Part shown: positions 16,070-36,866 of the stretch, in pieces
Position numbering within the stretch: position 1 is the stretch's first letter
Layout of the letters: each line of letters opens with the position of its first letter
Assembly (NCBI RefSeq): GCF_000195295.1
Contig: NC_015388.1
Coordinates: 2,542,001-2,606,000, forward strand
DNA length: 64,000 nucleotides
From: Desulfobacca acetoxidans DSM 11109
GTDB taxonomy: Bacteria > Desulfobacterota > Desulfobaccia > Desulfobaccales > Desulfobaccaceae
Direction of reading: 5' to 3'
The notes under the pieces: generated by a model
Database searches by the model: none
What the model was told of the DNA's origin: nothing
The model's input: only the letters and a program-made list of their open reading frames with translations
Program-made: the position numbers and the translations under genes

Positions 16070-16555
16070 ATGAATCCTAAATTCGCCGCTTCTGGTACTG
16101 CAAAGTGGCAATGTCGACTACTGCCCATTATGGTGGGTTTGCTGGCAGGATTATTGTGCTACCCCACCCCGGCGCTGGCCTTCATGCCCCACTGGGATCC
16201 TGAGGAGGCGTTTTTTGTCCGGCAATTCGCCTATCTCTTTTGGGCCTTGGCCATGCTGTTTTTCATTTTTGAGCTGCGGCAGCAAAAACTGCAGCAGTAC
16301 CGGAGCTTCCGGCTGTTGGCCCGGTCTGGCGGATTTTTCGTTGCGTGGAATATCGTCTGTTTTATCGGGCAGTTTATCAGATTGATCCTGGCCCCCAATG
16401 ACCGCGCCGAACCGGCAGCCGCCTTCGTTCAAGGACTGGCTTATTGGCTGTATGTGATAACCAAACTGGATAACCTACTGCTGGCACCAGCCTTTATCTT
16501 TTTATATCTGGGTATCAGGGCATTTGGTCGAGAGGGGACGGTGAGACCCCAATGA
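16070..16555 (+). CDS. Integral membrane protein of unknown function
   Basis: A 161-residue protein not recognised as a known family. A signal-like hydrophobic segment (LLPIMVGLLAGLLCYPTPALA) is followed by a short polar HWDPEEAFF region and three more hydrophobic helices (FAYLFWALAMLFFIFEL, GGFFVAWNIVCFIGQFIRL, LLLAPAFIFLYLGI). A TGAGGT ribosome site precedes the ATG. The gene overlaps the histidine kinase by ATGA, so the two are almost certainly co-translated, and this protein may be a membrane sensor partner of the kinase. Confidence 0.75.
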   Translation: MNPKFAASGTAKWQCRLLPIMVGLLAGLLCYPTPALAFMPHWDPEEAFFVRQFAYLFWALAMLFFIFELRQQKLQQYRSFRLLARSGGFFVAWNIVCFIGQFIRLILAPNDRAEPAAAFVQGLAYWLYVITKLDNLLLAPAFIFLYLGIRAFGREGTVRPQ

Positions 16556-17640
16556 ATGTCATGCCCCTGTTCATCGCCATAGACGATATCGCCGGTTCGG
16601 TTCTGATCGTCATCGTCAGTTTGGCAGCTTTTATCCGCTGTCGCCGCCTGGTAATCCGGGAGGCCGAAAACGCCTTATGGCTGTTCCTCTATTGGCTCAC
16701 CCTGGCTCTGTTTGTCTTTAGTCTTTCTCGAGCCTTGGGACACATAGCTGGCCACCTCCTGATGTATGCCGACCTGGACTTTTTATGGAGACAGATGCGT
16801 CCTTTCAGCGGCGGCCTCAACGCCATTATTTCGATCATTGTCGCTTCCATTACTCTATTTTTTCATAATATTCAAAAGCTTTATCGGCGCATGGAGGCCG
16901 ATCACTACCATATTGAGGCTACCAGCCAGGAAATTATGGCGCTCAACCGCGAGATGGAGGCCCTGGTGATGGAACGCACCATGAGTGAGATGGCCCTGGG
17001 AATTGCCGACGGCATCCGCAACCCGCTGCAGGTCATCGGGGGATTCAGCAACCGCCTGCTTCGGAAGACGGCCCCGGAAGATCCGGCCCGAGACTGGGCT
17101 CTAGCCATCTCGGAGGCGGCCAAACGTTTAGAAGAGATGGTAGTGCGATTCGAAAGTCTGGCGCAGAATAAAAAATCCTTCTTCTCTCAGGATGATCTGA
17201 ACAAAATCGTGCGGGATATCGTGGAGATGCTGCGGGGAGAATTCGAACGCAAACACGTTCACCTGATTACCGGCTATCACTCCTATCCGGTTTATTGCCA
17301 GTTAAATCGGCATCTCCTCAAGGTGGCCATTGCCCACCTGATCCGCAATGCCTTGGAAGCCACCGGCCCCCAGGGAGAAATCCACGTTACTACCACTTGT
17401 GATAAAAACTATGCCACCCTGGTGATCCAAGACAGCGGCAAAGGCATGCCTCCTGAGGTAGTCAGCAAGGTTTTTGAACCGTATTTTACTACTAAAGTCG
17501 GCGGCACCGGCCTGGGAATGGTCTTTGCCCGCCAGATCGTGGACGAGCATCGGGGGATTATTAATCTGGAAAGCCAGGAAGGCAAAGGAACTACGGTGAC
17601 TATCAATCTGCCGGTGCGGTTCGGTGAACCGATAATCTAA
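16552..17640 (+). CDS. Membrane sensor histidine kinase with altered H-box
   Basis: A 362-residue kinase-like protein with an N-terminal membrane sensor of about three helices (residues 10-105), a short coiled coil, a HisKA-like dimerisation region and a complete HATPase_c domain. The ATPase domain shows N box HLIRNALEA, G1 DSGKGMPPE, F box FEPYFTTK, G2 GGTGLGM and the final GKGTTVTINLPV. The H-box normally reads AHEIRNPL but here is ADGIRNPL: Asp 153 (codon GAC 17008-17010) replaces the phosphorylated His. ATP binding looks intact, so it may be a pseudokinase or use another residue. No response regulator adjoins. Confidence 0.85.
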   Translation: MNVMPLFIAIDDIAGSVLIVIVSLAAFIRCRRLVIREAENALWLFLYWLTLALFVFSLSRALGHIAGHLLMYADLDFLWRQMRPFSGGLNAIISIIVASITLFFHNIQKLYRRMEADHYHIEATSQEIMALNREMEALVMERTMSEMALGIADGIRNPLQVIGGFSNRLLRKTAPEDPARDWALAISEAAKRLEEMVVRFESLAQNKKSFFSQDDLNKIVRDIVEMLRGEFERKHVHLITGYHSYPVYCQLNRHLLKVAIAHLIRNALEATGPQGEIHVTTTCDKNYATLVIQDSGKGMPPEVVSKVFEPYFTTKVGGTGLGMVFARQIVDEHRGIINLESQEGKGTTVTINLPVRFGEPII

Positions 17641-36443: not shown

Positions 36444-36866
36444 ATGATACCAGCCGGAAAACCTATCCCTATCAGCCTCTTGGTGCTCAATGAGGATATC
36501 CGCCGGCATATGCAGATTATTCTGGAGCGGAACAACTTCCAGCCGGTGATCATAGCCAATCCCAGTGAATTGCTGCTTGAATTAAAAGAGCGCCAGAATC
36601 CTATTATCTTTATCGATTGGGAGGCTGAAACCCAGTACGGGCCGTCTATCATCATGAACATCAAGGCCGCCTGTAAGGAAGGTGGGATAATCTTCCTTTA
36701 CGACAGAGAGCATCGCAATCTTATCCGAGAAGTCATGCAACTCGGGGTCTACGGCTGCATCCTAGATCCGTATAATGAATGGGAAATTCTTACCATGGTG
36801 AAACATCTTCTCACCAAAAAAACTGCCAAACCCGACCGCCGTAAGAAACCGATCACAAATCACTGA
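36444..36866 (+). CDS. Stand-alone degenerate response-regulator receiver domain
   Basis: A 140-residue protein with the alternating strand-helix pattern of a CheY-like receiver. Acidic residues Glu 17 and Asp 18 follow strand 1 (ISLLVLNED), and Asp 58 sits at the phosphorylation position (PIIFIDWE). The conserved Lys before strand 5's Pro is replaced (CILDPYN). The conserved Thr/Ser is also not clear (IIFLYD). Phosphorylation may be weak or lost. There is no output domain. No kinase adjoins, so the partner is unknown. Confidence 0.7.
   Translation: MIPAGKPIPISLLVLNEDIRRHMQIILERNNFQPVIIANPSELLLELKERQNPIIFIDWEAETQYGPSIIMNIKAACKEGGIIFLYDREHRNLIREVMQLGVYGCILDPYNEWEILTMVKHLLTKKTAKPDRRKKPITNH

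Follow-up and report, generated by a model that had tools for sequence, protein, structure and literature searches.

To our knowledge, pseudo-histidine kinases are few and have been studied mostly through DivL. Sensors of the ZraS/AtoS type have an acceptor histidine and a cognate NtrC-type regulator, and PhyT belongs to the HWE/HisKA2 class. DivL is reported to keep the characteristic kinase motifs except for the histidine, which is replaced by Tyr550, and to act without kinase activity (PMC4211667). For CrdS, the reported half-life of phosphorylated CrdA (CrdA~P) is 53.5 min without CrdS, 0.7 min with the wild-type protein, and 2.6 min with the H371A mutant, which keeps most of the phosphatase activity; the E372G mutant is kinase-dead and phosphatase-competent, and N375 is required for the phosphatase (PMC3510030). 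As told in the same source, PleC H610A lost both activities, i.e., some HisKA phosphatases need their histidine (PMC3510030). RetS, which is unable to autophosphorylate, is described as a transmitter phosphatase (PMC5992135), and CheA3/CheA4 are reported to form a split kinase pair (PMC3591291).

The gene studied here lies in a 64-kb stretch of Desulfobacca acetoxidans DSM 11109 DNA (NC_015388.1, positions 2,542,001 to 2,606,000), the whole of which is referred to as the window. The open reading frame (ORF) at 16552-17640 (+ strand) encodes a kinase-like sensor of 362 residues, in which N-terminal helices and a coiled coil precede a HisKA (DHp) and a HATPase_c domain. The H-box context around residue 153 reads MALGIADGIRNPLQVIGG. 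The phospho-acceptor position is occupied by aspartate (Asp153, codon GAC at 17008-17010) and the +1 position, where the usual residue is acidic, by glycine (Gly154, 17011-17013), confirming the replacement of His by Asp and of the neighboring Glu by Gly proposed in a first-pass annotation of this DNA. They are followed by Asn157-Pro158 at positions +4 and +5 (17020-17025), a phosphatase signature. The ATP-binding domain, which the same annotation had considered complete, is indeed well matched by Pfam (HATPase_c, E 9e-25) and carries intact N, G1, F, and G2 motifs within residues 255-341 (17314-17574). The HisKA score is 25.6 bits compared to a Pfam cut-off of 26.9 bits (27.8 bits by six-frame search), and no PAS domain was matched by Pfam in the protein. 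In the AlphaFold2 model (mean pLDDT 81.4, pTM 0.44), helices 6-36 and 41-72 and the start of helix 76-172 look like three membrane spans upon inspection. The third of these helices continues into DHp alpha1, with the DHp helices running to residue 172 and from 178 to 205 (alpha2), and the C-terminal part has the ATP-binding fold. ZraS and other HisKA kinases were the nearest solved structures in a fold search with this model, with DivL at rank 8, and the best NCBIfam matches were of the ZraS/AtoS type, far below the curated cut-offs.

The ATGA coupling noted in the first-pass annotation between the kinase gene and an upstream membrane-protein ORF is real. This ORF (16070-16555, + strand) encodes a partner of 161 residues that has a signal-peptide-like start and membrane-like helices. 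A small membrane protein is found directly upstream of nearly every family kinase. Using a profile built from 37 of the proteins later found with it, the partner was detected at all 62 family loci searched, a count that excludes locus L050, where no partner was found. In the 57 loci with kinase coordinates, it lies on the same strand at most 434 bp upstream, and at most 75 bp upstream in 53 of them. The alignment of the 62 loci (A2) displays two histidine motifs, EGxYvHQxaH and GH. Of the 57 copies that do not belong to the window's clade, 56, 57, and 57 retain the three respective histidines; all five copies of that clade have Arg, Tyr, and Gln at these positions, which suggests that a cofactor or ligand site was lost there. 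In a structural model of the partner protein that belongs to the paralogue, two of these histidines are located early in one helix, and the third lies toward the end of the helix that follows. Together with His64 of the kinase, which is invariant in 40 of 40 rows of a kinase alignment (A1, described below), they would face the periplasmic side if the signal peptide is cleaved. It is a reasonable guess that they form a heme, metal, or quinone site that the window's branch has lost. Pfam returned hits in single members only among the 62 partners (best E 0.0018), no sequence match was found in the PDB at E 0.1, and no Foldseek match had an E value under 0.001. The best Z of 8.8 obtained in VIA-align 2 is middling for a helical bundle and does not tell a new fold from a known one.

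A search of the whole genome gave 44 HisKA matches at E values up to 1, one of which is spurious (E 0.63) and 41 of which carry the histidine, the weakest three or four of these 41 being below the Pfam cut-off. Only two matches lack it, namely, the window gene and the single paralogue from its family (at 3053930), and each has Asp. No member of the kinase family with an acceptor His was found in this genome, and a kinase split between two of its family members was accordingly rejected. As counted by eye, the +1 acid is present in 36 of the 41 other matches and a Thr or Asn at +4 in 36. Since five of these His-bearing proteins also lack the +1 acid, its loss alone is no proof of a dead kinase. 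The absence of an adjacent response regulator, also claimed in the first-pass annotation, held as well: no receiver domain was found near the kinase gene, and the only match in the 64-kb window at an E value of 0.001 or better is some 19 kb away. This weak receiver-like match (~36492-36800, + strand; E 7e-7) lies in an open frame of 150 residues in which the conserved Lys seems by eye to be absent, with Asp-Pro instead, and which is a possible pseudo-receiver.

Among the 29 genomes of the Desulfobaccales, 28 contain the kinase family at E 1e-45, with a total of 37 copies, and no member was found at this threshold in G027 (69% complete). Residue 153 is His in 23 copies and Asp in the other 14, and the +1 residue is Gly in all 37. 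The Asp copies come from 12 genomes and comprise seven copies from the window's taxonomic family (f1, one per genome in seven genomes), five in the window's own clade (G000, G002, G012, G016, and G025), and one each in G008 and G013. The window's genome and its six f1 relatives have Asp copies only; in family f2, an Asp copy is accompanied by a His copy in all five genomes that contain one. The Asp copies retain the ATP-site motifs (one of them is truncated at the end of a contig), and both aspartate codons, GAC and GAT, occur among them. Their dN/dS is 0.05 to 0.21 in seven pairs, compared to 0.07 to 0.16 in three pairs of His copies, and they are under purifying selection. Conserved loss of the acceptor in a selected protein, the hallmark of a pseudo-histidine kinase, is what we find here, and the relatives show Asp at this site as an old and selected state. 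The residue at +7 is the sole recurrent candidate for another phosphorylated histidine, the case that the first-pass annotation had named as contradicting its reading. It is His in 21 of the 23 His copies, and in the Asp copies it is Gln in the window copy, Cys in seven others (all f1), and His in the remaining six. A replacement phosphosite at +7 is thus ruled out in the window copy and also finds no His in the seven f1 copies with Cys; it is possible in the six Asp copies that have His there.

Based on neighboring proteins identified by eye, lnt-like and era-like genes both lie near six of the seven f1 copies (the seventh, in G002, has lnt only). For the 17 f2 His copies with surroundings examined, both genes were present in six, one in eight, and neither in three, and neither was seen near four examined relatives of the window's clade or near the G008 and G013 copies. 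Orthologues occupying the same locus therefore differ at residue 153, with Asp in f1 and His in f2. The comparison with orthologues suggested in the first-pass annotation, in which His would have pointed to a sequencing error or strain mutation, consequently gives a mixed answer: the nearest relatives have Asp, and the lnt-era neighborhood has Asp in the window's family and His in the sister family. A large kinase with receiver domains lies about 600 bp downstream of the Asp copies in G008 and G013 (L054 and L055, at 9.6 to 13 kb of the oriented loci). It is a candidate functional partner, with the predicted order CHASE-PAS-HisKA-HATPase-REC-REC in G008 by Pfam. The gene neighborhoods did not reveal a target regulator, since few of the relatives have a regulator or hybrid kinase gene next to them.

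To follow the direction of change, a core tree was built from the DHp and CA domains of 66 relatives, namely, the rows passing the E-value cuts, with the H-box columns removed. It needs four changes between His and Asp, three of which are forced by starred branches. A full-length tree of 48 rows was better resolved. In this tree, the f1 Asp copies branch first (95/91), followed by the G008/G013 Asp copies (100/100), and the window's Asp clade (99/93) is the sister of 22 His copies (100/100), with all forks joining these groups starred. The Asp copies of the order form a basal grade with the 22-copy His clade nested inside. The cheapest history on this tree would be a basal Asp with one return to His (two changes), compared to three separate gains of Asp (three changes). 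A topology in which the Asp rows are grouped together and separated from every His row was rejected by the AU test at p 0.028, a modest value that gives no direction. Alignment A1 comprises 40 rows, 28 of which are from the order (11 Asp and 17 His copies, with nine order copies missing) and 12 from outside relatives. Seventeen of its columns share no residue between the 11 Asp and 17 His copies, 12 of them within the first 94 residues. In 16 of these columns, more outside relatives agree with the Asp form than with the His form (narrowly at column 55, 7 to 5), which lends independent support to Asp at the base; the exception is column 153 itself, where all 12 outside relatives have His. The invariant Gly at +1 fits a path from HE through DG to HG. 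His may have been regained within the Desulfobaccales, subject to the long outgroup branches and to possible gene conversion between paralogues. Locus L050 (G020) has a His-type core with a different N-terminal sensor. Its placement within the Asp clade of the window comes from the core tree alone; it is absent from the full-length tree, where its inclusion would mean one more change. With such a core in the Asp clade under another sensor, shuffling of the core from one sensor to another is possible.

In a phylum sample of 395 genomes (best five candidates per genome), we found the same membrane kinase with His, along with a soluble relative whose N-terminus, without Pfam assignment, is followed by a DHp and an ATP domain. 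An RsbT-like N-terminus suggested by eye for the latter had no Pfam support and was rejected. At the single locus scanned with Pfam (L264, G307), the neighbors are a PAS-STAS protein, a STAS protein, and two HATPase_c_2 proteins, a set that is stressosome-like, and similar sets stand beside other soluble relatives as judged by clustering or by eye. Soluble Asp-type relatives were seen at L264, L268-L289, L187, L188, and L193. The residue is Asp in 14 of 14 loci of one locus set, in which G203 has a different N-terminal part and the G317 match ends at query residue 365. The soluble relative is present in 25 of the 46 genomes of the order around G378, always with Asp and intact ATP motifs, and three of the 25 genes contain an in-frame stop (G326, G412, and G408). 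The membrane kinase was found in 28 of the same genomes, always with His; its N-box Asn is lost in eight, and six of these eight also have the soluble Asp protein. Membrane relatives with an acceptor His and a ruined ATP domain (L296, L297, L300, L301, L303, L304, L307, and L316) may be phosphotransferases or may provide the acceptor half of a split kinase. A third class combines the same membrane module with a PAS domain and a canonical AHEINTP box (five proteins, one of them scanned with Pfam), and a receiver gene, single-domain or NtrC-type, was seen by eye in six of its ten loci (L254-L263), two being confirmed by Pfam. As this class has the same partner and membrane domain, the two-gene module represents a wider, unnamed sensor front end. 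Taking these observations together, we tentatively propose, as one possible and still rather doubtful history, that the acceptor site has two working states and is reversible. Asp and the loss of the +1 acid would have been fixed at the base of the Desulfobaccales and given a long-lived non-kinase sensor, and one branch would have regained His (as HG) with a rebuilt membrane sensor; elsewhere, Asp would have been fixed in a stressosome-linked relative that feeds its ATP domain to a His-only partner.

We propose that the window protein is a kinase-dead membrane sensor kept by selection, the output of which would be either dephosphorylation of a response regulator or state-dependent binding, a reading that we regard as evenly poised between right and wrong. 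It draws on sequence features, i.e., the missing phospho-His and +1 acid, the intact ATP motifs, the Asn at +4, the adjoining membrane-protein gene, and the long-lived Asp lineage. The protein would be unable to autophosphorylate. The partner and the N-terminal helices of the kinase would form the sensor, and nucleotide binding together with the sensor state would shift the DHp helices. The output would act on an unlinked response regulator that receives its phosphate from another kinase, either by dephosphorylating it (transmitter phosphatase) or by binding it in a state-dependent manner. Asp153 probably keeps the acceptor site acidic and unphosphorylated. As to the output, phosphatase appears likeliest, with DivL-like binding next. 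The Thr or Asn at +4 that marks HisKA transmitter phosphatases is present (Asn157), and among the 66 relatives, Asn at +4 and Pro at +5 occur in all 66, compared to His in 44 and a +1 acid in 15. The ATP motifs are ruined in five of these relatives, all of them His rows, and another His row has one motif letter changed. This separate erosion of the kinase determinants next to a constant phosphatase Asn was counted in favor of the phosphatase, and given the CrdS mutants, the window protein looks like a natural kinase-dead, phosphatase-competent equivalent. The segment of DHp alpha1 after the acceptor, the docking site for regulators, has 79% identity among Asp copies versus 54% for CA residues 211-300. 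The corresponding value for His copies is 92%, and this lower identity in the Asp copies would count against the phosphatase, although the Asp set branches deeper. A phosphatase role also leaves unexplained why 22 of the 22 non-His rows among the 66 relatives have Asp and not Ala, Asn, Gln, or Tyr.

That constancy of Asp, along with live ATP motifs in 21 of the 22 rows (the remaining row is truncated at the end of a contig), is what would be expected if the ATP domain transferred phosphate to Asp153 and made the protein an acyl-phosphate transmitter. However, the +1 acid is missing, and the reaction would need a nucleophile of different chemistry and a different geometry; we know of no precedent for a phosphorylated acceptor Asp in HisKA proteins and consider this highly improbable. 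A decaying gene, a strain mutation, or a sequencing error would be easily produced, as Asp and His codons are one base apart. This explanation was nonetheless rejected and its probability is close to nil, considering the 14 Asp copies in 12 genomes, the dN/dS well below 1, the use of both Asp codons, and the complete ORF. Of the functions offered in the first-pass annotation, a pseudokinase, phosphatase, or ATP-sensing partner is supported, and an inactivated allele is refuted by the Asp found in five of five copies of the window's own clade and 14 of 37 in the order, encoded by GAC and GAT, with dN/dS of 0.05 to 0.21.

A pseudokinase in the manner of DivL would perform no catalysis at all, its DHp/CA core binding a phosphorylated regulator or another kinase and exerting allosteric control. 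The described properties of DivL and its rank in the fold search agree with this, as does the position of the G008 and G013 Asp copies upstream of a large receiver-bearing kinase; however, a screen with two receiver queries placed a receiver-bearing neighbor within 1 kb of only these 2 of 14 Asp copies, the window protein has no PAS input, and the strict retention of the Asn at +4 and of the nucleotide motifs would be left unexplained. We judge this to be unlikely, if the most serious competitor to a sensor with phosphatase output. Alternatively, the Asp protein, unable to phosphorylate itself, could form a heterodimer in which its live ATP domain phosphorylates the histidine on the partner's DHp. 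The loss of the N-box Asn from 8 of 28 His kinases in the order around G378, next to invariably intact soluble Asp proteins, speaks for such a division of labor, as do the five f2 genomes with both forms and the CheA3/CheA4 precedent. Outside the Desulfobaccales, 377 genomes (best five and four candidates each) include 11 with both kinds, 6 and 3 with one, and 357 with neither (Fisher p 9e-15, which ignores relatedness and places four genomes that carry a more distant type, AHETRNP, in the "neither" class). Conversely, two of the eight genomes with a ruined ATP domain had no soluble Asp protein found (one is a draft of 530 contigs), one of the six that do have it is G412, where the soluble gene contains a stop, and a PhyT-like relay would account just as well for the His proteins whose ATP domain is ruined (PMC5898713). 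Because the window's genome and its six f1 relatives have Asp copies only, no His partner from the family is seen there, and we consider a split kinase quite improbable for the window protein. A trans-acting catalytic subunit is an attractive role for the soluble relative.

Compared to known systems, the DHp and CA domains of the window protein have their best NCBIfam and fold matches in HisKA sensors of the ZraS/AtoS type, but unlike these, the protein has no acceptor His, and no cognate NtrC-type regulator was found nearby. CrdS H371A and E372G and other HisKA transmitter phosphatases resemble it in that the acceptor or the +1 acid is gone and the Asn at +4 is kept. The CrdS mutants are laboratory-made, whereas the state of the window protein is natural and old. 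RetS of Pseudomonas shares with our reading the lack of autophosphorylation and the phosphatase activity, but as described, it has a degenerate ATP domain and keeps its His and receiver domains, which is the reverse of the window protein. CheA3/CheA4 and PhyT divide acceptor and catalysis between different proteins, a division also suggested by the soluble Asp and membrane His relatives; the former are of the CheA type and PhyT has an HRxxN motif, while the putative HisKA split would have arisen here through point and domain losses. DivL of Caulobacter is similar in having one conserved other residue in place of the acceptor His, retained ATP motifs, and a similar core fold. It differs in its Tyr acceptor, its PAS input, its alphaproteobacterial host, and its known partner DivK, as opposed to Asp and no PAS match in the window protein, and the window family, unlike DivL, has a membrane partner protein and alternates between His and Asp among relatives. 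Acceptor loss with a kept fold is already known from DivL (PMC4211667). Among the literature matches listed, i.e., titles and the starts of abstracts, none described Asp at a HisKA acceptor site; what appears to be new, as far as these searches reach, is that Asp is the only other residue at the site, that this state recurs in two architectures, and that a tree suggests a return to His. The natural His and Asp forms are close relatives that occur side by side in five genomes with the same kind of membrane partner. Such pairs provide a ready-made test of the individual contributions of the acceptor, the ATP domain, and the phosphatase residue, and they bear on whether a pseudokinase can return to the acceptor state and whether a HisKA kinase can be split by losses on two relatives.
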